The notes under the pieces are model-generated. The model did no database searches and was not told the origin of the DNA. It saw only the letters and a list, made by a program, of their open reading frames with translations. Positions 50,112 through 63,925 of a stretch of DNA of 64,000 bases are shown here, piece by piece; within the stretch, counting starts at the first letter, position 1; the number at the start of each line of letters is the position of its first letter. The translations under genes and the position numbers were made by a program. This DNA comes from Loktanella sp. SALINAS62 (GTDB taxonomy: Bacteria > Pseudomonadota > Alphaproteobacteria > Rhodobacterales > Rhodobacteraceae), in NCBI RefSeq assembly GCF_018263905.1, contig NZ_JAAFZU010000015.1, forward strand, positions 1 to 64,000, given 5' to 3'.

Positions 50112-50977
50112 ACAGCACCTTTTCGCATAAAATTCAGAATTGCCGCCATGTCGCGTGCACCATAACCATCGCGTTCGGCGGCCAGCAGTATGTCCAGCGT
50201 GACGCGGCCCTGCGGTATCGCGGTGCCAAGCATGTCGGCCAGTGCGGCTGTTGCCTGCATATCCTTGCGGGCCAGCGCCACGGTAAAGGTCACGTCGTGT
50301 GACGCCTCGTCAAGATACAGCGGACGGCGATAGGAAATCATCGGGGCGGCAGCGGCGCTGTTCTCGATCACATCAAGGGCCGCGTCAGGTGCGATGCCCG
50401 CCGCCTCTGCCAGTGTCATCGCTTCTGCCAGCGTCTGGTTGAGCCCGTGGATCAATGCGTTGACCGCCAGTTTCATGACGGACCCTGCACCACGCGCACC
50501 CAGACAAATCGTCTTGCGCCCCAGCGCGTCCAGAACCGGGTGCAGCGGTGCCGCCTCCTCTGGTGTGCATCCCGCCATCAGCAACAACTGCGCGTCGGTA
50601 GCCGCCTGCGTCGCGCCGGAAACCGGTATGTCGATCACGGTCGTGCCAACCGGTGCCGCCCGCACAAGTGCTGCGATATGATCCGGCGACATGGTGCCCA
50701 TTTCGATCAGCGTGCGGTGCCCGGTCGCCGCAAACAGCCCCGCGTCGCCCCTGTGCACGGTGTCCGACGCGGTATCGTCGGCCAACATCGTGACGACAAC
50801 CTGCGACACTTCGGCAAGCGCCTTTGGCGTGTCAGCCACACGCACGCCGATCCGGTCCGACAGCGCATGCGACTTTTGCGGTGACCGGTTCCAGACCGTT
50901 ACGTCATGCCCGGCCTTTGCCAGATTGACGGCCATGGGTGTCCCCATCCGCCCCAGTCCAACAACGCCGACCCGCAT
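50108..50977 (-). CDS. NAD(P)-dependent dehydrogenase, 3-hydroxyisobutyrate dehydrogenase family
   Basis: A 289-residue beta-hydroxyacid dehydrogenase. NAD-binding GLGRMGTPMA starts at residue 7; the substrate block DIPVSGATQAATD is near 118; the catalytic Lys is in GSVMKLAVNALIHG near 170. Related enzymes oxidise 3-hydroxyisobutyrate, tartronate semialdehyde, gamma-hydroxybutyrate and similar. It shares its start/stop with the ABC ATPase gene upstream (1-nt overlap). The substrate is probably an intermediate of the compound imported by the adjacent transporter. Confidence 0.85.
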   Translation of the reverse strand: MRVGVVGLGRMGTPMAVNLAKAGHDVTVWNRSPQKSHALSDRIGVRVADTPKALAEVSQVVVTMLADDTASDTVHRGDAGLFAATGHRTLIEMGTMSPDHIAALVRAAPVGTTVIDIPVSGATQAATDAQLLLMAGCTPEEAAPLHPVLDALGRKTICLGARGAGSVMKLAVNALIHGLNQTLAEAMTLAEAAGIAPDAALDVIENSAAAAPMISYRRPLYLDEASHDVTFTVALARKDMQATAALADMLGTAIPQGRVTLDILLAAERDGYGARDMAAILNFMRKGAV

Positions 50978-52488
50978 TACGCCACCCGGTCTTCGCTAAG
51001 CCCCGATATGGCCTGTACAAGATTGTTTTCCGTCACTTCTTCGGTCGTGAATTCCCGCATCACACGGCCCGAAAACATTGCCACGATCCGGTCCGACACG
51101 TGCAGCACCTCTGGCATTTCGGAACTGACCACAATGACTGCATAGCCCTGCGCCGCCAGATCACGGATCAGATTGTGAATTTCAGATTTTGATCCCACGT
51201 CGATGCCGCGTGTCGGTTCATCGACGATCAGCACCTTGGGATGCATCGACAGCCATTTTCCGATGACGATCTTTTGCTGGTTGCCGCCGGACAGGTTGCC
51301 CACCGTCTGCCGCCAACCCGGTGTGCGGATATCCAGCGCATCATGATATTTATCGAAAATGGCGACCTCTGCCTTATCGCTGGTGAACGGTCCGCTGGTC
51401 AGCTCTCCGATCTGCGGCAGGGTCATGTTGTCCCGGCAGTTCATGCCCAGCACCAACCCCTGCCCCTTGCGATCCTCTGGCACCAGACTGATGCCCCGTG
51501 CGATCGCGTCCTGCGGGGAATTGATCGTGACCTCTTGGCCGTCCAGCAGAATCTTGCCTGCAGACGGCTCGCGTAGGCCAAAGATCGTTTCGGCGATTTC
51601 CGTGCGGCCCGCGCCAACAAGCCCGTAAAAGCCGACGACTTCTCCTTTGCGGACGGTGAAACTGACGTCATGGAACAGTTTACCGCAACTCAGGTTGCGG
51701 ACTTCCAATGCGACGTCGCCCATCTCGTGTTGGACCTTGTTCCGGCTCAGATCCAGTTTGCGGCCGATCATCAACTGGGTCACGTCTTCTTCGTTCGTCT
51801 CGGCGGTGTTGAGCGTACCGCGATAACTGCCATCGCGCAGGACGCTGATCCGGTCGGTGATCTTGAAAATCTCTTCCATCCGGTGGGAAATGTAAATCAC
51901 ACCGACGCCGCGCGATTGCAGATCGGCGATCACATCGAACAGTACGACCTTTTCGGAATCCGTCAGCGACGCTGTCGGTTCGTCAAAGATAACGGCGCGC
52001 GGATCAACGGTCAGCGCACGGGCAATTTCGACCATTTGCTGATTGGCGATGGACAGGTCACCGACACGGGTGCGGGCGTTGAACCCGACGTTCAGGCGGT
52101 CGAGGATGGCGTCCGTGTCGGTATAAAGCTTTTCCCAGTCAACACGGCCAAGGCTTTTACGCGGCAGTTCCCCCAAAAAGATATTTTCGGCCACGCTCAA
52201 TTCATCCGCAAGGCTCAGTTCCTGATGGATAAAAACCACACCATTTTGCTTGGCAGTCTGCGGGCGGTCCATGACGACCTGCTTTTCGCCGATATAGATC
52301 TTGCCTTCGTTCGGCTGATGCAGCCCGCCCAGCACTTTCATCAGGGTGGATTTGCCTGCACCGTTTTCGCCCATCAGGGCGTGGACCTCTCCGGGGCGCA
52401 GATCAAGCGATACACCGTCCAGCGCCCGGACACCGGGGAACGCCTTGACGATATTTTCCAGCCGCAGAATGGGGGATTGATCGGTCAT
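50977..52488 (-). CDS. Ribose-type ABC importer ATPase (RbsA/MglA-like)
   Basis: A 503-residue protein with two ATPase halves as in RbsA/MglA/XylG. First: Walker A GENGAGKSTLMK, signature DLSIANQQMVEI, Walker B AVIFDEPTASLTDSE. Second half: LVGAGRTEIAETIFGLREP, signature NLSGGNQQKIVIGKWL, Walker B VLIVDEPTRGIDVG. The ATG at 52488 was chosen from the family start (LRLENIVKAFPGVRALDGV). It overlaps the permease gene by 4 nt. Energises uptake of a monosaccharide or polyol. Confidence 0.92.
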   Translation of the reverse strand: MTDQSPILRLENIVKAFPGVRALDGVSLDLRPGEVHALMGENGAGKSTLMKVLGGLHQPNEGKIYIGEKQVVMDRPQTAKQNGVVFIHQELSLADELSVAENIFLGELPRKSLGRVDWEKLYTDTDAILDRLNVGFNARTRVGDLSIANQQMVEIARALTVDPRAVIFDEPTASLTDSEKVVLFDVIADLQSRGVGVIYISHRMEEIFKITDRISVLRDGSYRGTLNTAETNEEDVTQLMIGRKLDLSRNKVQHEMGDVALEVRNLSCGKLFHDVSFTVRKGEVVGFYGLVGAGRTEIAETIFGLREPSAGKILLDGQEVTINSPQDAIARGISLVPEDRKGQGLVLGMNCRDNMTLPQIGELTSGPFTSDKAEVAIFDKYHDALDIRTPGWRQTVGNLSGGNQQKIVIGKWLSMHPKVLIVDEPTRGIDVGSKSEIHNLIRDLAAQGYAVIVVSSEMPEVLHVSDRIVAMFSGRVMREFTTEEVTENNLVQAISGLSEDRVA

Positions 52489-53486
52489 ACCCGCAACTCC
52501 TCTTTGCCCTTGCGATTCAGCTGACGGTCCAGAAACAACACGGCGATCAGGATCAGACCGATAACAAGGTTCACCGTTTCGGTGTCGGAACCGATGTGAC
52601 CCAATCCCTTGCGCAGCAGTTGGATTGCGATGACGCCGCCAAGGGTCGATATGATGGACCCATATCCCCCTGTCAGTTTGGTCCCGCCCAGCACGACAGC
52701 GGTAATCGCCCAAAGTTCGTACAGCATCCCGTCGTTGGGATTCACCGACCCGCTTTCGGAATAGAACACCACGGCGGACAGCGCAGACAGGAAGCCGATC
52801 AGCATGAAATTCCACAGAAAATGCGGGCCGACGCGGATACCCGCGTTCACCGCCGCCTCGCGGTTATTGCCGATGGCATAGGCGTTGCGGCCATGCACGG
52901 TACGGGTCATGACCAGCCACAGGATCAGCGCCACCACAAGCAAGAACCACGTCGCCGTATGCAGTCCAAGAAACCGGGCCTCTGCGAAATCGACAAGTGT
53001 CCAGTTCAGGTGACTGGTCGGCTGTTCACCGTTGTACATAAAGACAAGACCACGGTAGCCCAGCATCGACCCCAGCGTGACAATAAAGGCGTCGACACCG
53101 GTTTTCCAAACGATAAGCCCATTGATCGCCCCCAGCACGACGCCGGTCAGCAACGCCAACCCCCAAGAGATAGGGATTGACCAAACGCCCAGCGATTGCA
53201 TCCACGCCCATCCCATGCTGTCCAGCAAGATGACCGCCGACATTGCAAAGATGGCCCCAACGCTCAGGTCGATATTGCCGTTGATCATGACAATCGTCAT
53301 GCCCAGCGCGATGATCCCGATGGGCGCCGATTGCTTGAGCAGCAGCAGCATGTTTTCAGGGTCCATAAACGTCGCGTCCGTCACCGACAGGAATTTCCCG
53401 GCGATTGAAAAGAACGCCAGTTCGACCGCGATGAAGGCCCAGATCGCGCCCTGCTTGATCAGGTCAGTCCGGTTTATATTACTCAT
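52485..53486 (-). CDS. Ribose-type ABC permease
   Basis: A 333-residue RbsC-like permease with eight to ten hydrophobic segments. Typical features: PIGIIALGMTIVMINGNIDL near residue 50, GAINGLIVWKTGVDAFIVTL, and the family segment AVVLGGTKLTGGYGSIISTL. The ATG at 53486 is chosen because the longer frame enters the upstream permease. It lies 11 nt after that permease; two permease genes indicate a heterodimeric channel. Confidence 0.88.
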   Translation of the reverse strand: MSNINRTDLIKQGAIWAFIAVELAFFSIAGKFLSVTDATFMDPENMLLLLKQSAPIGIIALGMTIVMINGNIDLSVGAIFAMSAVILLDSMGWAWMQSLGVWSIPISWGLALLTGVVLGAINGLIVWKTGVDAFIVTLGSMLGYRGLVFMYNGEQPTSHLNWTLVDFAEARFLGLHTATWFLLVVALILWLVMTRTVHGRNAYAIGNNREAAVNAGIRVGPHFLWNFMLIGFLSALSAVVFYSESGSVNPNDGMLYELWAITAVVLGGTKLTGGYGSIISTLGGVIAIQLLRKGLGHIGSDTETVNLVIGLILIAVLFLDRQLNRKGKEELRV

Positions 53487-53497
53487 CCCGTTTCCCC

Positions 53498-54472
53498 TCA
53501 GGCGATCGGTGACAGAAGGCGACCGCGCTTGGCCGCGATGTCCAGCCAGACAGCCAGAATGATGATAACCCACGTCACGACGTATTGCGCGTAGAAGGCC
53601 AGCCCCATCAGCAAAAGTCCGTTCTGGATAAATCCAAGGATCAGGACGCCGATCACGGTCTTGAAAATGGTGCCCGACCCGCCAAGCAAGGACGCGCCGC
53701 CAAGGATGACAGCCGCCAAGACCTCTAGTTCGAGCCCTTGACCGACGGTGTTTTGGCTGCCCAGGCTACGGCTGGCCTGCATCAGGCCCGCCATGGCGAC
53801 GCAGAACGATGACATCAGATAGGTCAGGAATACGATCCGTGCGCGGGGGATTCCCGAAAACACCGCTGCCGTGCCGTTGCCGCCAACGGCATAGACCTTG
53901 CGCCCGAACGCTGTGCGCGACAGCACGACACCTAGTCCCGCTGCCAGTAGCGCAAACATCAGGATCGGTATCGGAATGCCAATGATATCGCCCTGCCCGA
54001 ACACATTGAACCATGTGCCGCGCTTGTCGGCGATATCCATGTTCTGCCCGCCGGAATAGGTCAGGGTCAGCCCATGGATCGCGGACAACATCCCCAGCGT
54101 GACGATCAGCGAATTCAGTTTGAGATACCCCACCAGAAACCCGATGAACGCACCAAGGCACAAGGTCATGCCGAACATCGCAGGAATGGCGAGCGCCGGT
54201 CCGATCTTGTCGTGCAGGTCCAGCACGACGATGGTCGAAAACGACATCATCGACCCAACAGACAGGTCCAGATTGCCGCCGATGACCACAAACGTCACAC
54301 CCAATGCCATGACCCCAAGGATCGCGCTGGACCGGATGACGCCAGAGATATTGTCAATGTCGATGAACCGCGGGTTCGCGATCGCAAAGACGATCATAAA
54401 GACCGCGAAAGCCACGATGATGCCCTGACGGGCCAGAAATCCGCTTAGTCCCGCTTTGGATATTTCTGCCAT
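53498..54472 (-). CDS. Ribose-type ABC permease
   Basis: A 324-residue RbsC-like permease, paralogous to the next gene. Features: GVMALGVTFVVIGGNLDLSV, GYLKLNSLIVTLGMLSAIHG, AVILGGASLLGGSGTIFKTV. It probably forms the channel together with the second permease. It follows the short-chain dehydrogenase gene by 43 nt. Confidence 0.88.
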   Translation of the reverse strand: MAEISKAGLSGFLARQGIIVAFAVFMIVFAIANPRFIDIDNISGVIRSSAILGVMALGVTFVVIGGNLDLSVGSMMSFSTIVVLDLHDKIGPALAIPAMFGMTLCLGAFIGFLVGYLKLNSLIVTLGMLSAIHGLTLTYSGGQNMDIADKRGTWFNVFGQGDIIGIPIPILMFALLAAGLGVVLSRTAFGRKVYAVGGNGTAAVFSGIPRARIVFLTYLMSSFCVAMAGLMQASRSLGSQNTVGQGLELEVLAAVILGGASLLGGSGTIFKTVIGVLILGFIQNGLLLMGLAFYAQYVVTWVIIILAVWLDIAAKRGRLLSPIA

Positions 54473-54515
54473 TCATCCCTCCCGTCTGGCTGTCGTGTCC
54501 GGTCCGCGACCGGTG

Positions 54516-55328
54516 TCAAACCAAGGTCATTCCACCGTCGATCATCACGATCTGCCCGGTCATGTAATCGCTGTCGCGTGACGCCAGAAAGGTCGTCGTT
54601 CCTGTCACGTCCGCAGGCTTGGCCACGCGGCCCTTCAGGATTTGCGACGAAAACTCCTCCATCGCCTGTCCGGGGCGGTTGGCGGCACCGATGTCCATCA
54701 GGTCCTGATCGACCTGCTCCCACATCTCTGTCGCAACCACACCGGGGGCGAACCCGGTGACGGTGATCCCGTGCTTGCCCAGATCGCGCGCACCCGATTG
54801 CGTCAGCGCCACAACCGCGAATTTACTGGCGCAATAGGGCGCGACATTGTCGAACCCCTGTCGGCTGGCGATTGATGCGGTATTGACGATCTTACCCGCC
54901 ATGCCGTCCGCATCGCGACCCTGAGAGATCATTTGCCGGGCAGCTTCCTGCATGCCGATCATGCAGCCCAGACCATTGATCCCCATAATGAAATTCCAGT
55001 TTTCCTCTGTCACGTCGAGGAAATTCATCGGTTTGTTGACACCCGCGTTATTGAATTTCACGTCAAGGCGCCCGAACCGTTCGACTGTTCTTGCAATCAT
55101 TTCCCGGACCTGATCGCGGTCGGTGACGTTGACCGGGGCGCTCATTACCAGTCCACCGGCGTTTGCCGCGCGTTCTGCGTTCGCTTCGACGACTTCGGCC
55201 AGCTTTTTGGCGTTGATGTCTGCGAAACAGACATTGGCGCCTTCGTCGAGCAAGGCTTCTCCGATGGCGCGGCCGATCCCTTGGGCGGCGCCGGTCACAA
55301 TGCAGGACCGTCCGTAAACACGGGCCAT
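54516..55328 (-). CDS. Short-chain dehydrogenase/reductase (polyol-type)
   Basis: A 270-residue SDR. Cofactor motif TGAAQGIG at residues 12-19, NNAG in VKFNNAGVNKPMNF, catalytic Ser in NTASIASRQ and YxxxK in APYCASKFAV. Asp in CFADINAKK suggests NAD preference. The C-terminal DLMDIGAANRPGQAMEEF segment resembles sorbitol/galactitol-type dehydrogenases. It is located between the binding protein and permease genes, so it probably acts on the imported compound. It is clearly paralogous to the SDR at 58398 (shared NAG-NKP, MQEAARQM, GFAPGVV and MTGQ blocks). Confidence 0.88.
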   Translation of the reverse strand: MARVYGRSCIVTGAAQGIGRAIGEALLDEGANVCFADINAKKLAEVVEANAERAANAGGLVMSAPVNVTDRDQVREMIARTVERFGRLDVKFNNAGVNKPMNFLDVTEENWNFIMGINGLGCMIGMQEAARQMISQGRDADGMAGKIVNTASIASRQGFDNVAPYCASKFAVVALTQSGARDLGKHGITVTGFAPGVVATEMWEQVDQDLMDIGAANRPGQAMEEFSSQILKGRVAKPADVTGTTTFLASRDSDYMTGQIVMIDGGMTLV

Positions 55329-55370
55329 TACGGAACCCCTCTATTAATCAGAATACACGTGTAAGATCCG

Positions 55371-55404
55371 TGATGCGGGCCGACGCGAACGCCGACCCGC
55401 ATCA
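55371..55404 (-). promoter_or_regulatory. Hairpin after the solute-binding protein gene
   Basis: TGATGCGGG (55371-55379) pairs with CCCGCATCA (55396-55404), a 9-bp stem 11 nt beyond the stop of the binding-protein gene, with no T run in the direction of transcription. Likely a 3' stability element giving more binding protein than permease, as at nrtA-nrtB. Confidence 0.5.
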
Positions 55405-55414
55405 TCGGGGAGGA

Positions 55415-56374
55415 TCAGAAAACAGGCTTGGTATAGTCGCCCATGTTGTCCTGCGTGATCTTCGGTGTGTCGAAGTAGTTCAGGAACGGCACCTCTTCGC
55501 CGTTCAGCACGTCGATAGCGGTCTGCAACGCGGCCTCTGCGTCATCAACCGGGGACTGGTAGATCGATCCCCAGTAATCGCCAGCTTCCATCGCTTCGTA
55601 GCCCACCGCAAAGTTGGTGGCCCCGACGAAAACGATGTCGCCCGCACGGTCAGCGGCACGGGCCGCGTTCAATGCGCCCACACCCATGTTGTCGTCACCG
55701 GCATAGACGCCGTCGATGTCGTCATACTTGACCAGGAACGCTTCCATGACCTGCTGGGACTTTTCACGGTTCCAGTCGCCGGGCTGGGTTTCGACCAGCG
55801 TAACGTTCGGGCAGACCTCTGGCAGACGCTCTTCAAAGCCCTGTGCGCGTTCGATTGCGGTGGTGTAGCCGGGCTGGCCCGAAATCTGGACGACCCGCGC
55901 TTCGTCCTGCATACCCAGTGCGGTGAAACGGTCACACATGATCTCTGCCGACCGTGCGCCCTGCGTGATGTTGTCCGGGCCTGAAAAGGAAGCCACGAAA
56001 TCAAAACCGGCCTCGGCGATGTTCGAGTTGGTGACGACAACCGGGATGTCAGCCTGGCTGGCCTTGCGGACAGCGGGAATGACGGCTTCACCGTTGGTCG
56101 GCCAGATGATGATGGCATCGACGCTTTGCTGGATCAGGTCTTCGACCTGCGCGATTTGCCGGGCAACATCGCCGCCGGCATCCAGCACGACGACGTCGAC
56201 GTTTTCGTTGGCTTCGGCAGCGGCGATGAACGCCTGTTCATAGGTGGTCTGATAGCTGTCGACGCCCACGTTGTTTTGCGTGATGCCGATGGTCATCGGG
56301 CCATGTGCTTCTGCAAAGGCGGCAGAGCCGATCAGCGCCGTCGTGCATGCAAGTGCGATAGAAGTTGTCTTCAT
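55415..56374 (-). CDS. Ribose-type periplasmic solute-binding protein
   Basis: A 319-residue binding protein of the periplasmic-binding-protein type 1 (RbsB-like) group. The signal peptide ends near residue 22 (TTALIGSAAFAEA). The mature part has the expected MTIGITQNNVGVDSYQTTYE start, DAIIIWPTNGEAVIPAVRKA, VVVTNSNIAEAG and IDGVYAGDDNMGVGALNAAR. It is the first gene of the minus-strand transport operon, divergent from the HTH/solute-binding regulator. The ligand is probably a sugar or polyol. Confidence 0.9.
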   Translation of the reverse strand: MKTTSIALACTTALIGSAAFAEAHGPMTIGITQNNVGVDSYQTTYEQAFIAAAEANENVDVVVLDAGGDVARQIAQVEDLIQQSVDAIIIWPTNGEAVIPAVRKASQADIPVVVTNSNIAEAGFDFVASFSGPDNITQGARSAEIMCDRFTALGMQDEARVVQISGQPGYTTAIERAQGFEERLPEVCPNVTLVETQPGDWNREKSQQVMEAFLVKYDDIDGVYAGDDNMGVGALNAARAADRAGDIVFVGATNFAVGYEAMEAGDYWGSIYQSPVDDAEAALQTAIDVLNGEEVPFLNYFDTPKITQDNMGDYTKPVF

Positions 56375-56501
56375 CGTAATTCCTCCCAGTCAAAAATGTC
56401 GATCGCGGCCAACCTCCTGGCCCGAAGCCGTCTGGCCCCTGCAATCTGACGTCTACAAAGCCTGACTTACCGCAACGAATCCCCGCCCATCTTGTCCGGA
56501 T

Positions 56502-56519
56502 TGGATTAAATTATATCCA
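56502..56519. promoter_or_regulatory. Candidate operator between transporter and its regulator
   Basis: TGGAT-TAAATTAT-ATCCA, a perfect 5-bp dyad with an 8-bp AT-rich spacer, in the 203-bp space between the divergent binding-protein gene and the HTH fusion regulator. A second TGGAT occurs at 56545-56549 (TGGATATC). Likely bound by the fusion regulator; no direct proof. Confidence 0.35.
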
Positions 56520-56577
56520 TTTTGATCTTTTTTGGAATACTCACTGGATATCAAATCGAACAATTTAGAGGCACGCC

Positions 56578-58386
56578 ATGAAGAAACCAGCCATCCCCAC
56601 CCCTGATCAACATAAATCCGGTGCCATGCATTATCAGTCGGCAGAAAATATCCATAACGGACATCACACGGCGGATTCATCCGCCGCGTCCGCTGGTCTG
56701 GATATGCCGCAAATCGTCGGGTTTCTGCAGGAGCTGCTGACAGAGCTGGACAGTGCGATCGAACCGGGCGCCCCGAACCCCTATATGAACATGCTGCTGC
56801 ACCTTCTCGACTCTCATTTCGAGGGTCGGGTGGTGTCGCCGTCGTCGATGGTCGCGAGTTCAGGTGTTCCCTACGCCACCAGCACGCGCAAGCTTGCGGA
56901 AATCACCGACGCGGGCCTGATCGAACAGCGTGCCCGGACCAAGACCGGCAAAACGTTTTCACTGCATCCCAGCCCAAAACTGCTGTCGCTGTTTCATCAG
57001 CTCAGCAGTCGGATCGACCGGATCGCACGCGAACGCTATGGCCAGACGAGTGCAGCCAGCACCGATTACTACTTCGGCGAGTCCTATCAGCCGGGTCAGG
57101 CAACGATCCCCCCGCCCCGTGCCTTGCGCCAAGCGCTGAAATTGCCGGGCGGCCTGCGTATTCTGGTGCATGGCGATCCGACGTTCATGGTCATGGAAAA
57201 CCTCAAACGTCAGTTTGAACAGATGATCGGCACGGACATCGTTCAGCGCGCATTTTCCATCGACCGTCTGCGCGAAGAAAGCCTGCGCAACGCCGACCGC
57301 GCCAAAAGCCGCTATGACCTGATCGCGGTCGATTTGCCGTGGGTTGGGGAATTCGTCAAAAAGGGCGTCATCCGTCCCCTGCACGATGTCATGGACATCA
57401 ACCGGCTGGACCCCAGCGATTTCCACACCGCCGGATGGCGCGCGGCCCATTGGGAAGGTGTGCCTTATGGCGTTCCCAGCCAAACGACACCGGAACTGAT
57501 GTTCTATCGGCGGGACTGGTTCTCTCGGGCTGGACTGCAGGCCCCCAAGACGACCGACGATGTCATCGCCGCAGCACGTCAGTTTCACGAACCGCAACAC
57601 GGTCGCTACGGTGTGGCTTGGAACGGCGCGCGCGGCACCGCACTGGGACATACGTTCATGATGACCTGTGCCGATTTCGGACAGCCGGTCATCGACATGG
57701 GCGCCATCGCGGGTGGCTATGACGCCGATCATCTGGATCGCGACGATTTACGCCCGATGCTGGACAGTGACCGCGCGCTTGCCGCTGCGGAATACCTGAT
57801 GGAGCTGCTGGATTATTCCCCGCCCGATATCCTGTCGATGTCGTGGTACGAACGGGTCCGCCCCTATGCGGCCGGTCGCGTGGCGATGGCCTATGGCTAT
57901 ACCCTTCTGGCCCCGTATTTCGAACTGGACGATACCTGCCCGGCCCATGGCAATACAGGCTATGTGCCGCATCCACACGGGCCGAACGCCGCCCCCATCG
58001 CGCCTGTCGGCGGGTATGTCCTGTGCATTCCGGCCAACCTGCCCGATGACCGGATCCCCGACACGGTCGAGGCGCTGGTCGCCTTTACCTCGCCCGCCGC
58101 ACAAAAGCTTTACGCGCTTGAAGGCAGCCGCACAGCACCGCGTTATTCGGTCGGATCGGACCCGGACGTCCGCCGCCTATCGCCGATCTTTGAACTGGTC
58201 GACCAGATGTCCTGGCGGGACGAGCTTCAATTCTGGCCGCGCCCGCCAATTCCGCAGATTTCAGACATCATCAGCGTCTGCGGCACAGAACTGCATGACA
58301 TGCTGCGCGGGATCGTCACGCCCCGGCAGGCGCTTGCCCGCGCGCAGGCGCAGGCAGAACAGCTACTACGACAATCGGTCACTTGA
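56578..58386 (+). CDS. Fusion regulator: winged HTH plus family-1 solute-binding domain
   Basis: A 602-residue protein with no signal peptide. Residues about 45-150 form a winged-helix region: PYMNMLLHLLDSHFEGRVV, SPSSMVASSGVPYATSTRKL as helix-turn-helix, and EQRARTKTGKTFSLHPS as the wing. From about 195 to 565 there is an extracellular solute-binding protein family-1 domain (LRILVHGDPTFMVMENLKRQ, YDLIAVDLPWVGEFVKKGVI, GVPYGVPSQTTPELMFYRRD, VAMAYGYTLLAP). A cytoplasmic DNA-binding protein using a maltose-binding-protein-type domain as ligand sensor is unusual. It is divergent from the transporter operon and heads the SDR-M24-E1-E2 operon, so it should regulate both. AGAGG precedes the ATG. 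Confidence 0.8.
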   Translation: MKKPAIPTPDQHKSGAMHYQSAENIHNGHHTADSSAASAGLDMPQIVGFLQELLTELDSAIEPGAPNPYMNMLLHLLDSHFEGRVVSPSSMVASSGVPYATSTRKLAEITDAGLIEQRARTKTGKTFSLHPSPKLLSLFHQLSSRIDRIARERYGQTSAASTDYYFGESYQPGQATIPPPRALRQALKLPGGLRILVHGDPTFMVMENLKRQFEQMIGTDIVQRAFSIDRLREESLRNADRAKSRYDLIAVDLPWVGEFVKKGVIRPLHDVMDINRLDPSDFHTAGWRAAHWEGVPYGVPSQTTPELMFYRRDWFSRAGLQAPKTTDDVIAAARQFHEPQHGRYGVAWNGARGTALGHTFMMTCADFGQPVIDMGAIAGGYDADHLDRDDLRPMLDSDRALAAAEYLMELLDYSPPDILSMSWYERVRPYAAGRVAMAYGYTLLAPYFELDDTCPAHGNTGYVPHPHGPNAAPIAPVGGYVLCIPANLPDDRIPDTVEALVAFTSPAAQKLYALEGSRTAPRYSVGSDPDVRRLSPIFELVDQMSWRDELQFWPRPPIPQISDIISVCGTELHDMLRGIVTPRQALARAQAQAEQLLRQSVT

Positions 58387-58397
58387 GGGAGGAAATC

Positions 58398-59207
58398 ATG
58401 GACCCCAAACGCCTAGAAGGTAAGAATATCCTGATCACCGGCGCCGCGCGCGGCATGGGTGCGGCGAACGCCGAAGCCTTTGCCGCACAGGGTGCGAACG
58501 TCTGCATTGGCGATCTGGACGGTGATGCCGCACAGGATATGGCCGACAAGATCAACGCCGCCGGCAACGGCAAGGCCGTGGCGATCCGGATGGATGTGAC
58601 AAAGCGCGAAGACAACGCCGCCGCCGTCGCTGCCACGGTCGAGGCATTCGGGTCCATCAACGTCGGCCTGTTCAACGCGGGCCTGAACAAACCCCGTTTC
58701 TTCATGGATATCGATGAAGACAACTGGGACATGATCATGACTGTCAACACAAAGGCGATGTGGCTGGGCATGCAGGAAACCGCCCGCCAGATGATTGCCC
58801 AGGGACCGATGGACAAACACCCCTACAAGATCATCAATGTCGGTTCCATCGCGTCCCGCAAGCCGCTTTTGGACGTGACCGTCTACTGCACCTCGAAATA
58901 CGGCGTGCTGGCGCTGACCCATTGCGGCGCACTGGGACTGTCCGAACACAACATTACCGTCAACGGTTATGCGCCCGGCGTCGTGGTCACCCCGCTGTGG
59001 GAACAGTTGGACAAGGATCTGGTCGATATCGGCTTCAAGCAAAAAGAGGGTCAGGCCTACGAGGACATCGTCCGCGACGCGCTTCAGATCAAGCGCGTGT
59101 CTTACCCCGACGACATCACCGGCACCGCGTCGTTCCTTGTCAGCAATGACAGCGATTACATGACCGGTCAGATGATCCACATCGATGGCGGCTGGTGCAT
59201 CCAGTAA
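58398..59207 (+). CDS. Short-chain dehydrogenase/reductase, paralogue of the SDR at 54516
   Basis: A 269-residue SDR starting at ATG 58398 with GAGGAAAT upstream. Cofactor motif TGAARGMG near residues 15-22, NAG in FNAGLNKPRFF, Ser in NVGSIASRK and YxxxK in VYCTSKYGV. Acidic residue in CIGDLDGD suggests NAD. Many blocks are shared with the SDR of the transport operon, suggesting two successive oxidations of a polyol, or two isomers. It is 11 nt after the regulator gene. Confidence 0.88.
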   Translation: MDPKRLEGKNILITGAARGMGAANAEAFAAQGANVCIGDLDGDAAQDMADKINAAGNGKAVAIRMDVTKREDNAAAVAATVEAFGSINVGLFNAGLNKPRFFMDIDEDNWDMIMTVNTKAMWLGMQETARQMIAQGPMDKHPYKIINVGSIASRKPLLDVTVYCTSKYGVLALTHCGALGLSEHNITVNGYAPGVVVTPLWEQLDKDLVDIGFKQKEGQAYEDIVRDALQIKRVSYPDDITGTASFLVSNDSDYMTGQMIHIDGGWCIQ

Positions 59208-59266
59208 CCAACCACACCCTTTTTCACAAACACTGACCGGGCCGTTTCCGCCCGAAGGAGAGACCT

Positions 59267-60565
59267 ATGTCACGCGCATTGATGCCGAACCTTTTGACCC
59301 CACAGGATCTGGAACCAAACTGGGAATGGCGGGAAAAAATCCCGGCATGGGGTCATATGTCCGTCGATTTCGAACGCCGGATCGATCACGACCGCCTGCG
59401 CCGCTATCGTCTGGCGCGCACGGAACAGGCGCTGAAAGCGTCTGGCGCGGGCACGTTGTTGCTGTTTGACGTGAACAACATCCGTTACGTCAGCGCGACC
59501 AAAATCGGTGAATGGGAACGGGACAAGATGTGCCGCTTCTGCCTGCTGACCGGCGATGAAAGCCCGTATGTCTGGGACTTTGGTTCGGCGGCGATGCACC
59601 ACAAACGCCATTCCGACTGGCTGGAACCTGACCACTGCCTTGCTGGCGTCGTCGGCATGCGCGGGACGATCCCGCCTGAATTCGGTCTGATGCAGAAATA
59701 TGCCAAGCAGATCGCCGGACTGATCCGCGATGCGGGCATGGGCGATATGCCGGTGGGTGTGGATTACGCGGAAACCGCGATGTTCCACGCACTGAAGGAA
59801 GAAGGTCTGAACATCGTCGATGGCCAGCAGATCATGCTGTCTGCCCGCGAAATCAAGAACTGGGACGAAATCCAGCTTTTGACGCAGGCGGCGGCAATGG
59901 TCGATGGCGTCTACCACATGATCTACGAAGAACTGAAACCCGGCGTGCGCGAAAATGATATCGTCGCGATGTCCAACAAGATGTTGTACGAAATGGGGTC
60001 GGATGACGTCGAGGCGATCAACGCCATTTCCGGCGAACGCTGCAACCCGCATCCGCACAATTTCACCGACCGTTTGATCCGGCCCGGTGATCAGGCTTTC
60101 TTTGACATCCTGCAATCCTATCAGGGATATCGCACCTGCTATTACCGGACCTTTAACGTGGGCCGCGCGACGCCGTCGCAGAATGACGCCTATGTCAAAG
60201 CGCGCGAATGGATCGACGCGTCGATCGCGATGATCAAACCTGGTGTCAGCACCGACAAGGTGGCAGAGGTCTGGCCGACCGCGCAAAGCCTTGGCTTTGA
60301 AAACGAGGATCAGGCCTTTGGTCTGCAATTCGGGCACGGTCTGGGTCTGGCGCTGCATGAACGGCCGATCATCAGCCGCGCGGTCAGCATGGATCACCCG
60401 ATGGAAATCCAGACGGGTATGGTTTTCGCGCTGGAAACCTATTGCCCCGCCACTGACGGCTATTCCGCCGCCCGGATCGAGGAAGAGGTCGTCGTGACCG
60501 AAAACGGGTGTGAGGTCATCAGCCTGTTCCCCGCCGAAGAACTGCCCATCGCGAACCGTTACTGA
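59267..60565 (+). CDS. M24 peptidase-fold protein with Asp-to-Cys metal-site change
   Basis: A 432-residue protein of the M24 (Xaa-Pro aminopeptidase/creatinase) fold. It has an N-terminal creatinase-like domain (GTLLLFDVNNIRYVSATKIG) and the pita-bread C-terminal domain. Metal ligands expected at five positions: Asp280 is present, the second Asp (11 residues later) is Cys291 (YRTCYYRTF), His357 is present (GHGLGLALHERP), Glu390 is present (FALETYCP) and Glu405/406 is present (RIEEEVVV). So the metal centre is changed. It might be a non-peptidase hydrolase or lyase (as DMSP lyase DddP is within this fold, but the sequence is not DddP). AAGGAG precedes the ATG. Confidence 0.82.
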   Translation: MSRALMPNLLTPQDLEPNWEWREKIPAWGHMSVDFERRIDHDRLRRYRLARTEQALKASGAGTLLLFDVNNIRYVSATKIGEWERDKMCRFCLLTGDESPYVWDFGSAAMHHKRHSDWLEPDHCLAGVVGMRGTIPPEFGLMQKYAKQIAGLIRDAGMGDMPVGVDYAETAMFHALKEEGLNIVDGQQIMLSAREIKNWDEIQLLTQAAAMVDGVYHMIYEELKPGVRENDIVAMSNKMLYEMGSDDVEAINAISGERCNPHPHNFTDRLIRPGDQAFFDILQSYQGYRTCYYRTFNVGRATPSQNDAYVKAREWIDASIAMIKPGVSTDKVAEVWPTAQSLGFENEDQAFGLQFGHGLGLALHERPIISRAVSMDHPMEIQTGMVFALETYCPATDGYSAARIEEEVVVTENGCEVISLFPAEELPIANRY

Positions 60566-60577
60566 CGCGTGCAGCCT

Positions 60578-60605
60578 CCCACCCTGCGACACCCCGCAGG
60601 GTGGG
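60578..60605 (+). promoter_or_regulatory. Intercistronic hairpin before E1 alpha gene
   Basis: CCCACCCTGCG-ACACCC-CGCAGGGTGGG, an 11-bp perfect stem in the 69-nt gap after the M24 gene, followed by ATCTG and no T run. Probably a processing or stability element between operon parts, not a terminator. Confidence 0.5.
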
Positions 60606-60634
60606 ATCTGTCCCGCCCCCCCGGAGGATTTCCC

Positions 60635-61612
60635 ATGGCCAAGGCCAAGACCAATACCGAAGACTATCTGCGCATGTACCGCCAAATGGTGCGCATCCGC
60701 ACCTTCGAGGATAACGCAAACCAGCTTTATCTGAACGCCAAGATGCCGGGCCTGACGCATATGTATTCCGGTGAAGAAGCTGTCGCCGTGGGTATTTGTG
60801 AAGCGCTGACCGACGACGACCGCATTACGTCCACCCACCGCGGGCACGGGCATTGCGTCGCCAAAGGCGCGAATTTCAAGGAAATGTTCTGCGAACTGCT
60901 GGGCAAGGAAGAAGGCTACTGTCGCGGCAAGGGCGGGTCGATGCACATTGCCGATCAAAGCCACGGCAACCTTGGGGCCAATGCCATCGTGGGCGGATCA
61001 ATGGGGATCGCCACGGGATCGGCGCTGCGGGCCAAGTTGCTGGGACAGGACGACGTCACCGTCTGTTTTTTCGGTGACGGCGCTACGGCGCAGGGTCTGC
61101 TGTACGAGGTCATGAACATGGCCGCACTTTGGAACCTGCCCGTCATCTATGCCTGCGAAAACAACGGCTATTCCGAATATACGAAGACAGAAGAAATCGC
61201 CGCTGGCTCTATCACGGCACGCGCCGAAGCCTTTGGGATCGAGGCGTTCAAGGTCGACGGTCAGGATGTGCTGGCCGTAAACGAATTGACGCAAAAACTG
61301 GTCGCCCGCTGCCGCAAGGGCGAAGGCCCGTTCTTTATCGAATTGGAAACATATCGCTACCACGGCCACCACGTCGGCGACATCAACCGCGAATATTACC
61401 GGACCAAGGACGAAGAAAAGTCCTGGAAAGAGGATCGCGACCCGATCGTGCGCTTTCGTGGCTATCTGGTCGAACAGGGCATCGCCACCGAAGACGAACT
61501 GGAAGCGATGAACGCCGAAATTGCAAAAGACGCAAGCGAGGCCGTCGCCTACGCCGAACAGGCCGCCTATCCCGACGGATCAGAGGTCAACATGCACGTT
61601 TACGCGGACTGA
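60635..61612 (+). CDS. ThDP-dependent dehydrogenase E1 component, alpha subunit
   Basis: A 325-residue E1 alpha of the pyruvate/acetoin dehydrogenase type. Blocks: MVRIRTFEDNANQLYLNAKM, GLTHMYSGEEAVAVGICEAL, THRGHGHCVAKG, GKGGSMHIAD and the ThDP/Mg motif CFFGDGATAQG ... CENNGYSEYT (about residues 145-182). HGHHVGD is in the place of the family's C-terminal His loop. The ATG at 60635 follows GGAGG. No E3 gene is seen in the window. Together with the beta subunit and a lipoyl protein it resembles acetoin dehydrogenase AcoABC more than a housekeeping pyruvate complex. Confidence 0.88.
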   Translation: MAKAKTNTEDYLRMYRQMVRIRTFEDNANQLYLNAKMPGLTHMYSGEEAVAVGICEALTDDDRITSTHRGHGHCVAKGANFKEMFCELLGKEEGYCRGKGGSMHIADQSHGNLGANAIVGGSMGIATGSALRAKLLGQDDVTVCFFGDGATAQGLLYEVMNMAALWNLPVIYACENNGYSEYTKTEEIAAGSITARAEAFGIEAFKVDGQDVLAVNELTQKLVARCRKGEGPFFIELETYRYHGHHVGDINREYYRTKDEEKSWKEDRDPIVRFRGYLVEQGIATEDELEAMNAEIAKDASEAVAYAEQAAYPDGSEVNMHVYAD

Positions 61613-61623
61613 GGAGAGCCACC

Positions 61624-62619
61624 ATGAGAGAGATCACACTGTCCCAGGCCGTCAACGAAGCCCTGGCCGAGGAAATGCGCCGCGACCCCACAACCTTTAT
61701 CTTGGGCGAGGACGTTGCCGAAGCGGGCACACCGTTCAAGGTGCTGTCCGGTCTGGTCGAAGAATTCGGCACCGCGCGTGTTATCGACACGCCCATATCG
61801 GAACCCGGCTTTATGGGTCTGGCCGTCGGGGCCGCGATGACCGGCGCACGTCCCATCGTCGACCTGATGTTCGGCGACTTCATCTTTTTGATCATGGACC
61901 AGCTTTGCAATCAGGCGGCCAAAATCCATTATATGTCCGGCGGCAAACTGAACGTGCCGCTGGTCCTGCGCACCAACATGGGTGCCACCCGTCGGTCCGC
62001 TGCACAGCACAGCCAATCGCTTCAGGCCCTGGTGGCGCATATTCCCGGCGTCAAGGTCGCGATGCCGTCGTCCGCATACGAGGCAAAGGGACTGCTGAAA
62101 ACGGCGATCCGCGACAACAACCCTGTCGTCATCTTCGAAGACAAGTTGATGTATCAGGACAAGGCACCCGTGCCGGAAGAGGAATACCTGATCCCCTTTG
62201 GCGTCGCGAACGTCAAACGCGAAGGGTCCGACATCACGCTGATTGCCACGTCATCAATGGTACAGGTCGCGGAAAAAGCCGCCGCAACGCTGGCCAAGGA
62301 AGGCATCGAATGTGAAGTGATCGATCCGCGCACCATCGTCCCGCTGGACGAGGCGACACTGATCGCAAGCGTCAAGAAAACCAGCCGCGCCATCGTCATC
62401 GACGAAGGGCATCAAAGCTACGGTGTGACATCGGAAATTGCCTCTCGCCTGAACGAAAAGGCATTCTACTACCTTGACGCACCCGTGGTGCGCATGGGGG
62501 CGATGGACGTGCCGATCCCTTTCAGCCCCGCGCTGGAAGACCTGACCGTGCCCACACCCGAAGCGGTCGCAGACATGGCGCGCAAACTTTGCGCCGGGGA
62601 CATGATCCATGCCGCATGA
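61624..62619 (+). CDS. ThDP-dependent dehydrogenase E1 component, beta subunit
   Basis: A 331-residue E1 beta with the transketolase-like central fold. Blocks: ITLSQAVNEALAEEMRRDPT, ILGEDVAEAGTPFKVLSGLV, VIDTPISEPGFMGLAVGAAM, and the C-terminal YGVTSEIASRLNEKAFYYLD plus RMGAMDVPIPFSPALED. The ATG at 61624 follows GGAGAG. It completes the E1 heterotetramer with the alpha subunit and overlaps the lipoyl-protein gene by 11 nt. Confidence 0.88.
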   Translation: MREITLSQAVNEALAEEMRRDPTTFILGEDVAEAGTPFKVLSGLVEEFGTARVIDTPISEPGFMGLAVGAAMTGARPIVDLMFGDFIFLIMDQLCNQAAKIHYMSGGKLNVPLVLRTNMGATRRSAAQHSQSLQALVAHIPGVKVAMPSSAYEAKGLLKTAIRDNNPVVIFEDKLMYQDKAPVPEEEYLIPFGVANVKREGSDITLIATSSMVQVAEKAAATLAKEGIECEVIDPRTIVPLDEATLIASVKKTSRAIVIDEGHQSYGVTSEIASRLNEKAFYYLDAPVVRMGAMDVPIPFSPALEDLTVPTPEAVADMARKLCAGDMIHAA

Positions 62620-63925
62620 CGTAACAATGCCACAGCTTGGCATGGCACAGGACGCGGGCAAGCTCGTGACCTGGATCAAGGCCGAGGGGGACGCGGTGAA
62701 AAAGGGCGACGCCCTATTCGAGGTCGAAACCGACAAGGCCACGATGGAGGTCGAAGCCCAAGCCGACGGTTTTCTGACCCATCTGTCGGCGTCAGAAGGT
62801 GACGATGTGCCTGTGGGGGCCGTCATTGCGCGTATCTCTGACAGTGCCGACGCACCGGCCCCGGCCGCCGCCTCCGCCCCACCCGAAACGGACGATACCG
62901 CCGACGCCCTGCCAGACGGAAAACCCGTCACAATGCCCCAGCTTGGCATGGCACAGGACACTGGCATGCTGGTCGGCTGGCACAAATCGCCCGGCGACGC
63001 TGTCGCCGTGGGCGACATTCTGTTCGAGGTTGAAACCGACAAAGCCACCATGGACGTCGAGGCAGACAAAGCCGGTTATCTGGCGGCGACGCTGGCCGCC
63101 GCTGGCGATGACGTGCCCGTGGGCCAGACCGTCGCGATCATCAGTGACGAAAAACCCGCCACGCCAATCGCACGGTCGGTCGCGGACGCCGCCGCTGCAT
63201 CCGCACCAAAAAGCGCCAAGGCGGACGATACACCCGCGCAGCCAACATCCGATCCTAAACCGCCAAAACCCGCACCAGCACCCGAACGGGCGACGTCTCA
63301 GGCTGGTCAATCGGGGGGGCGCATCCTTGCCTCGCCCAAGATGCGAAGACTGGCTATCGAACAGGGCCTTGATCTGCAACGGCTGGTCGACGCCGGTCAT
63401 CCGCAACCTTTTCACTGCAACGATCTGGATGCGCTCAAGGCGTTGCCAGACCCCGCATCCCAAACCGCAGCAACCACCGGGGCCACAGCGGCACTTCGGC
63501 TTGTCGCAGAGGTCGCGGGCGAAGCGCTGGCAGATTTCACCGCTTGGGCCAGCGGCAACGGCAGCGCGGATGCGACCGCCATTCTTGCGGGCCTCGCGGC
63601 GGCGTCACTGCCTGCCCCCGGTCCCGTTGCTGTCAGCTATTTTGGTCGCACCACAACATATGTCCTGCCCGCCGACCGGCGTCTGGCCGGAACAGCCCCG
63701 ACCGAAGATACCCCGGCGCTGACACTGCGTGACCTGCGCGGATCGCCCCTGTCCTTTGTGGCACTGGGCGCAGAGGACACCCCGGTTCTGACCCTGACAG
63801 GACAGGGCGACACCATGACGTTGACGCTGGAATGCAGCCCCGCCCATCTGGACCCGCAGGATGCGATCCAGTTTCTGACCGATTTTGCAGGCCGGGTGCA
63901 GCAACCGCTGCGCCACCTGCTGTGA
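62609..63925 (+). CDS. Lipoyl/E3-binding protein with shrunken E2 domain
   Basis: A 438-residue E2-type protein. Two lipoyl domains: the first with ETDKATMEVEA near residue 40, the second with ETDKATMDVEA near residue 150, each with a lipoylated Lys. An Ala/Pro-rich linker leads to an E3/E1-binding domain (ILASPKMRRLAIEQGLDLQR). The C-terminal part is about 160 residues instead of the usual 230. Where E2 acyltransferases have HRVVDG, it reads HLDPQD (His413), so the Asp is misplaced and transferase activity is doubtful. It may act only as a lipoyl carrier/assembly core. Overlaps the E1 beta gene. Confidence 0.8.
   Translation: MPHDVTMPQLGMAQDAGKLVTWIKAEGDAVKKGDALFEVETDKATMEVEAQADGFLTHLSASEGDDVPVGAVIARISDSADAPAPAAASAPPETDDTADALPDGKPVTMPQLGMAQDTGMLVGWHKSPGDAVAVGDILFEVETDKATMDVEADKAGYLAATLAAAGDDVPVGQTVAIISDEKPATPIARSVADAAAASAPKSAKADDTPAQPTSDPKPPKPAPAPERATSQAGQSGGRILASPKMRRLAIEQGLDLQRLVDAGHPQPFHCNDLDALKALPDPASQTAATTGATAALRLVAEVAGEALADFTAWASGNGSADATAILAGLAAASLPAPGPVAVSYFGRTTTYVLPADRRLAGTAPTEDTPALTLRDLRGSPLSFVALGAEDTPVLTLTGQGDTMTLTLECSPAHLDPQDAIQFLTDFAGRVQQPLRHLL

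Follow-up and report, generated by a model that had tools for sequence, protein, structure and literature searches.

A putative one-component regulator in Loktanella and related Alphaproteobacteria that combines a MarR-type winged helix with a family-1 solute-binding domain

Introduction

Does the gene that lies divergently from a CUT2-type transporter operon in Loktanella sp. SALINAS62 encode one more exported binding protein, or a transcription regulator that senses a solute inside the cell? The gene is contained in a stretch of 64,000 nucleotides (positions 1 to 64,000 of contig NZ_JAAFZU010000015.1), which was analysed as a whole and is referred to here as the window. The use of a transport-receptor fold as a cytoplasmic sensor is familiar from LacI/GntR-type regulators; their sensor is of the RbsB type, whereas that of the window protein has the family-1 fold. 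GntR fusions to SBP_bac_1 in Firmicutes, if real, would mean that the domain pair in a broad sense is not unique. In this study, the domains, distribution, gene neighbourhood, relatives and upstream region of the window protein were examined computationally. The features of the locus are collected in Table 1.

Table 1. Features of the regulator locus, in window coordinates
Feature	Position	Strand	Remarks
Remainder of transporter cluster: SDR, two CUT2 permeases, ATPase	50977..55328	-	
RbsB-type (CUT2) exported solute-binding protein (SBP)	55415..56374	-	Peripla_BP_4 E 1.6e-52; divergent from regulator
Predicted three-way-junction RNA	56400..56446	-	presumed leader of the RbsB-type transporter operon, between operator and RbsB start
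Predicted operator dyad 1	56494..56506		degenerate here, 2 mismatches to ATCCA-N3-TGGAT; footprint over 69 regions
Predicted operator dyad 2	56515..56527		21 bp from dyad 1; degenerate, with a poorly matching right arm (at least 2 mismatches)
Third, weaker conserved element, TGGATATCAAATCGAACA	56545..56562		footprint consensus; near regulator start
Regulator gene, 602 aa	56578..58386	+	ATG start; MarR-type winged helix (wHTH) and family-1 solute-binding domain
Predicted winged helix region, residues 43-154	56704..57039	+	DSSP on AlphaFold2 models
Solute-binding domain, residues 184-602	57127..58383	+	5iai structural match and Pfam SBP_bac_1
SDR dehydrogenase, first gene after regulator	58398..59207	+	scanned from upstream in-frame start
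M24-family enzyme, distantly DddP-like	59267..60565	+	
E1 alpha, E1 beta and lipoyl-domain (E2-like) genes	60569..63925	+	named from annotation of orthologous locus L170

Results

The regulator is predicted to contain a complete family-1 fold and a winged helix

In Pfam scans, the window protein matched SBP_bac_1 (E 5.6e-23, residues 246-509) and SBP_bac_8 (E 5e-18), and no match to a Peripla_BP (RbsB-type) domain was obtained at E≤1. SBP_bac_1 was also present in 63 of 63 family members when each was scanned singly; this alignment held the window protein, 41 of the 80 named loci and 21 paralogues, and L125, omitted for a frame problem, was recovered later. The whole regulator was modelled by AlphaFold2 from an alignment of 71 sequences (mean pLDDT 79, pTM 0.67). 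In the model, residues 1-41 are of low confidence. A helical, winged part (43-154) comes next and is joined by a weak linker (155-174) to a full solute-binding fold. The best solved match to the sensor, as ranked by VIA-align, was 5iai (Z 44.2, rmsd 2.7, 395 aligned residues, residues 184-597 of the regulator), and MalE3, SmoF and TMBP were among the next-ranked matches. By Pfam and predicted structure alike, the two-lobe SBP_bac_1 fold is complete in the regulator.

Given that no HTH was found in the window protein alone by Pfam (E≤1) or by NCBIfam, the N-terminal domain was established through relatives and folds. DSSP on the AlphaFold2 models placed helices at residues 43-60, 68-81, 88-93 and 133-154 and a wing at 115-131; the first and last of these helices are predicted to flank the domain in the monomer models, and helix 99-111 is likely the recognition helix. 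Y99, A100, R104, R118, R120 and G124 were invariant in this domain in the alignment of 71 orthologue sequences. When residues 40-158 were folded alone, a winged helix was again obtained (pLDDT 88.3, pTM 0.81), with helices at 4-21, 29-43, 49-54, 60-72 and 94-115 and strands at 76-80 and 88-92 in the numbering of that fragment. Searches with this model returned mainly MarR-family structures, both by Foldseek (where the putative DNA-binding protein 2pg4 scored best, E 9.9e-4) and by VIA (best MepR, with a Z of 8.8 that is near the tool's stated background). MarR_2 was matched in 43 of the 63 singly scanned members at E≤1, with a best E of 2.8e-4 and modest individual scores. Because the VIA Z values lie near background, the MarR label is based on the combined evidence of element order, Pfam matches and match lists. 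Structure prediction, which had been named beforehand as a possible refutation, thus placed a winged helix in about residues 43-154 and a solute-binding fold in 184-602, and the original prediction of a one-component regulator with a winged HTH and a full family-1 domain was borne out computationally by Pfam, predicted folds and conservation.

No export signal is evident in the regulator

Export was judged from hydropathy only. No strongly hydrophobic N-terminal stretch was found in the regulator, where the maximum Kyte-Doolittle (KD) value over 15-residue spans of the first 70 residues was 1.08, compared with 1.41-2.20 in nine exported binding-protein controls; the claim that the protein lacks an export signal therefore held, neither a signal nor an anchor being found. 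The value was below 1.6 in 70 of 71 orthologues, the window protein included, and 1.73 in the remaining one, whose start was not checked; three of the nine exported controls also fall below 1.6, so that the two groups overlap at the margin. The 21 paralogues gave 0.42-1.19.

These values bear on the reading, in line with public annotation, of an ordinary ABC-transporter binding protein that is exported and whose N-terminal extension has no regulatory function. Among the 25 matches listed from the 47 plasmid records that match the regulator, 21 carry annotation, and all 21 name a binding protein ('extracellular solute-binding protein', 20) or a 'periplasmic component' (1). Against such a protein speak the lack of an evident signal sequence, the conservation of the N-terminal 110 residues as a predicted winged helix, and the fact that the adjoining CUT2-type transporter already has an RbsB-type binding protein of its own. 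We regard this reading as scarcely credible.

The architecture is conserved at a catabolic locus

Matches spanning both domains (query start ≤70, end ≥570) were found in at least 49 of 295 same-family genomes, that of the window included. A contig scan confirmed 151 relatives, from which 80 named loci were kept; orthologue alignments used 70 of these together with the window, ten being left out as redundant by judgement, since several look almost identical to others. The homology search for the same domain pair was successful, since the winged helix and the family-1 domain occurred together, at a conserved locus, in 80 of the 80 named loci, and also in paralogues. Because the orthologues, at 59-76% identity, include both the winged helix and the genomic setting, the architecture is not attributable to chance. 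Paralogues at 30-51% identity were present in several alphaproteobacterial families, including small AT-rich genomes. At least 23 of 196 genomes matched in the order sample (E≤1e-60) and at least 16 of 385 in a profile search of the class sample (E≤1e-30), where nine matches in eight genomes spanned both domains. In the phylum sample, at least 7 of 398 genomes matched (E≤1e-40), six with both domains, and the single full-length match outside the class was in G794. All these genome counts are lower bounds, because genomes are shared between samples and only few candidates in each genome are scored at first. The genome of the window itself has one regulator copy and one weak match to the binding domain elsewhere (E 3.8e-4).

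Many of the surrounding genes were conserved as well (Table 1). The RbsB-type gene was divergent from the regulator in 80 of 80 named loci, with less than 500 bp between matches. At ≥40% identity and in their own place, the ATPase, both permeases and the downstream SDR were present in 80/80 loci, the M24 gene in 75, the transporter-cluster SDR in 68, E1 alpha in 68, E1 beta in 67, E2 in 65, a ThuA-like gene in 40 and a HIBADH-like gene in 37; in some loci these counts are reduced by contig ends and the 8-kb flanks. The E1/E2 genes, whose start codons are not settled, encode a complex of the 2-oxoacid/acetoin-dehydrogenase type. E1 genes were not beside the regulator in L078, L093, L108 and L109, where the sequence stretch runs on. 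An annotated Phaeobacter copy of the locus has, in addition, a succinate-semialdehyde-type dehydrogenase, E2 and LpdA. Positions 50977-63925 of the window thus form a conserved catabolic cluster of a CUT2 transporter, two SDRs, an M24 enzyme and an E1/E2 complex. Substrate assignment from the PDB relatives of the RbsB-type binding protein and the M24 enzyme was also attempted and was not decisive.

Sensor and adjoining transporter had been predicted to come from different binding-protein families, and a family-1 sensor beside a CUT2 transporter is indeed the rule: it was seen in 80/80 orthologue loci and in 21 of 25 paralogue loci (20 and five further), with CUT1 transporters at the exceptions L117 and L171. 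At L117 only a CUT1 transporter and no CUT2 transporter was detected, and at L119, L126 and L129 neither type was detected. The five annotated plasmid loci comprised two orthologues (L170 and L173), L174 with a CUT2 transporter, L172 with neither type, and L171. At this last locus, on an Agrobacterium plasmid (L171:7911-12137), the regulator has a CUT2 transporter on one side and, on the other, a CUT1 transporter that possesses a binding protein of its own. One cluster contains two different paralogous regulators (L118 and L120), which are encoded on opposite strands at a distance of about 6 kb and flank a single CUT2 transporter.

Three small genomes (1.4 Mb, with a GC content of 0.36-0.37 in the stretch retrieved) encode a regulator of 30-32% identity that faces a CUT2 binding protein, and have genes for an SDR (57-58%) and an M24 enzyme (64-65%) nearby. 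In such small AT-rich alphaproteobacterial genomes, the SDR and M24 genes accompany a different CUT2 transporter and stand beside sugar-isomerase-like and Gfo/Idh-like genes (named by eye). Parts of the catabolic set therefore persist across loci while transporter subfamilies differ, which fits a regulator tied to catabolism. It is possible that the sensor reads a molecule different from the transported solute, such as an intermediate.

The sensor domain is close to an exported binding protein

A tree of 51 sensor domains was built from 38 regulators and 13 other binding proteins, after nine duplicates had been dropped from 60 rows. The regulators fell on one side of a single branch (96/87), which was present in 96% of bootstrap trees. 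Next to them joined a binding protein at L151 (L151:8243-9592), the nearest non-regulator relative found, which is 41% identical to the window sensor domain. Its N-terminus is signal-like (KD 1.97), and it adjoins CUT1-like permease and ATPase genes (named by eye). Its place as sister to the regulators is provisional, since the tree tool warns of long-branch joining, including at this very join. The simplest reading of these sequences is that the regulator family arose by one fusion event of a transport receptor.

We also considered that the protein might bind DNA as a regulator but have lost the ability to bind a small solute, its solute-binding domain serving instead in oligomerisation or in contact with another protein, such as the transporter's ATPase or a pathway enzyme. 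The exported protein at L151 keeps 21 of the 22 sensor residues that are invariant in the 63 regulators (ligand contacts among these are not distinguished), and the regulator sensor therefore does not look degenerate; moreover, a full two-lobe fold is predicted. Loss of solute binding thus appears unlikely, and the sensor is treated below as a functional one.

Tandem dyads form a predicted operator

The intergenic regions between the regulator and the RbsB-type gene were compared in a set of 69 (the window and 68 loci; L069 and L090 were left out for uncertain starts). Tandem ATCCA-N3-TGGAT dyads were conserved in the aligned regions. At ≤2 mismatches, 121 dyads were found in 65 of the 69 regions, compared with 13.1 in shuffled regions (maximum 22), and at ≤1 mismatch 79 were found in 52 of the 69, compared with 1.33 (maximum 6). 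Moreover, 43 pairs of dyads (≤2 mismatches) were spaced at exactly 21 bp. These data suggest that the tandem dyads are likely the operator of the regulator. The third conserved element in Table 1 is possibly a half site. A search of the window for ATCCANNNTGGAT at ≤1 mismatch missed the local dyads, and a search of the window's own genome for the tandem pattern at ≤2 mismatches gave five matches, none of them at the regulator locus. A promoter scan gave as its sole candidate a minus-strand promoter (56402 to 56373), which is weak, overlaps the RbsB start and was not used.

When 18 genomes were searched for the tandem pattern at ≤2 mismatches, 16 gave matches and two gave none. The match lay upstream of the regulator in only nine of the 18 genomes, five with 0-1 mismatch and four with two. 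All five tandem matches with ≤1 mismatch adjoined the upstream side of the regulator; the others, all with two mismatches, were at other places, and one of these, in G251, belongs to the regulator's cluster and by its position falls within the downstream genes.

Upstream regions of paralogues were scored against a 17-mer consensus. In 11 of 27 regions the best match was reached by ≤5% of shuffles, in three by 6-10% and in 13 by 36% or more. These 13, in which the match was no better than chance (cut 0.3), were L112-L114, L116, L123, L127, L128, L130, L131, L152, L154, L155 and L160; for L154 and L160 the upstream start used was not a start codon, and at L127, L128, L130 and L131 another gene immediately precedes the regulator. 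Clade-specific dyads were found afterwards in L123 and the three small genomes, which are among the 13. TC[AC][AG]-N3-TGGAC occurred upstream in eight of eight members of a clade with GMC-like neighbours (shuffle mean 0.03, maximum 1), and TATTCAA-N-TTGAATA in three of three small AT-rich genomes (0 of 1000 shuffles each), where some 6+6 palindrome is common in any case (70-99 of 200). Both patterns were chosen after looking, and the GMC label was given by eye. Related dyads thus precede about half of the paralogues.

Binding of the dyads by the regulator is read from their position and conservation only, which leaves room for another binder, such as an unlinked repressor, with the window protein acting elsewhere. 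Such a binder would have to account for dyads that accompany the regulator gene in several clades of paralogues, although neighbours differ and dyad letters have changed there, and for the restriction of tandem sites at ≤1 mismatch, in the 18 genomes searched, to the vicinity of the regulator. We consider this quite unlikely, and the dyads are discussed below as predicted sites of the regulator.

A structured leader RNA is predicted for the transporter operon

Between the dyads and the RbsB start, a three-way-junction RNA was named by eye from single-sequence folds and an alignment and was then counted in 41 sequences, so that the count leans towards that consensus. In the outer stem, 93.3% of cells were paired and double changes were seen at five of six pairs. 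For the whole structure, 82.1% were paired, compared with 26-47% when the structure was slid along the alignment. None of 500 shuffles was as high in percentage paired, in pairs and cells changed on both sides, or in covariation score, and six of 500 were as high in further pair types; shuffles of this kind can, as the tool cautions, be beaten by relatedness alone. G-U cells (42) exceeded A-C cells (20), and the transporter-mRNA strand is therefore favoured. Against an RNA counts the result of RNAalifold, which predicted no pairs on the gapped alignment. In 28 more diverged loci, the RNA model recovered two at the expected position with E<0.01 and two others weakly, so the leader RNA is not family-wide. 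The genome of the window has one clear copy (39 bits; next best, 25.4 bits). One hairpin loop carries a GGAGG-like run that resembles the probable ribosome-binding site, which is closer to the start codon. Four Rfam rows obtained for 55900-57000, none at the gathering score (best E 0.11), were set aside as chance.

Discussion

The protein is very probably a cytoplasmic one-component regulator in which a MarR-type winged helix is joined to a family-1 sensor, and which would bind the dyads and control both divergent operons in response to a solute. In the mechanism that we propose, the winged helix would bind the tandem dyads, probably as dimers, at two sites that are two helical turns apart and face the same side of the DNA. 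Closure of the two sensor lobes on a sugar- or polyol-like solute would then change DNA binding. The regulator would in this way control the divergent transporter operon together with its own operon, which encodes the SDR, the M24 enzyme and the E1/E2 complex. The closeness of the dyads to the regulator's start suggests autorepression.

The closest described parallel is SgrR. Its Vibrio homologue DsvR is described as an HTH with an SBP_bac5 domain (PMC13060122). Because SgrR activates other genes (sgrS, setA and alaC, according to a passage of PMC4021124) and represses itself (negative autoregulation, according to a passage of PMC13060122), the window regulator could, by analogy, activate the transporter promoter from sites upstream of it. 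Like members of the SgrR family, the window regulator has an N-terminal HTH fused to a solute-binding domain of the transport type; the sensor is SBP_bac_5 in SgrR, whereas it is SBP_bac_1 (with an SBP_bac_8 match) in the window regulator. SgrR_N (PF12793) had no match in the genome of the window at E≤0.001, in a search that detected it in the E. coli and B. subtilis control genomes, nor in the window protein at E≤1, nor among the 25 families listed of 34 Pfam families in the 63 members. The window regulator is therefore classed as an analogue and not a member of the SgrR family. In 55900-57000, none of the four Rfam rows up to E 10 was SgrS. With the MarR family it shares the wHTH fold, weak Pfam matches and the best structural matches, and it differs from the listed MarR proteins, of about 130-170 aa, in adding a sensor domain of about 419 residues. 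With the exported family-1 (CUT1) binding proteins (5iai, 1eu8 and L151) it shares a complete fold and a conserved core, but it has no evident signal sequence and has gained a DNA-binding domain.

The combination had been called rarely described. This stands for the pair of HTH and family-1 binding domain, no description of which was found in narrow word searches of the literature (most subscription journals lay outside them), and it has to be qualified for the wider type, of which the SgrR-type pair of HTH and SBP_bac_5 is a described analogue.

A more far-reaching scenario may be added. An exported CUT1 receptor may have been turned, once, into a cytoplasmic sensor by acquiring a MarR-type winged helix, the family following catabolic modules and reading an internalised product unlike the transported solute, with the structured RNA leader as a second, independent sensor. 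We hold this to be rather unlikely as a whole; if true, uptake would be gated at both the DNA and the RNA level.

In the public annotation seen, a conserved family of predicted transcription factors is filed as exported transport proteins and would, given such annotation, be absent from regulon maps of Alphaproteobacteria from sea and soil. Its origin, ligand and mechanism are directly testable, since a closely related exported protein and a predicted operator are at hand, and the family provides a clear example of a transport receptor converted into a gene switch. The regulator's ligand would, in turn, help to identify the substrate of the conserved pathway formed by the CUT2 transporter, the SDRs, the M24 enzyme and the E1/E2 complex.
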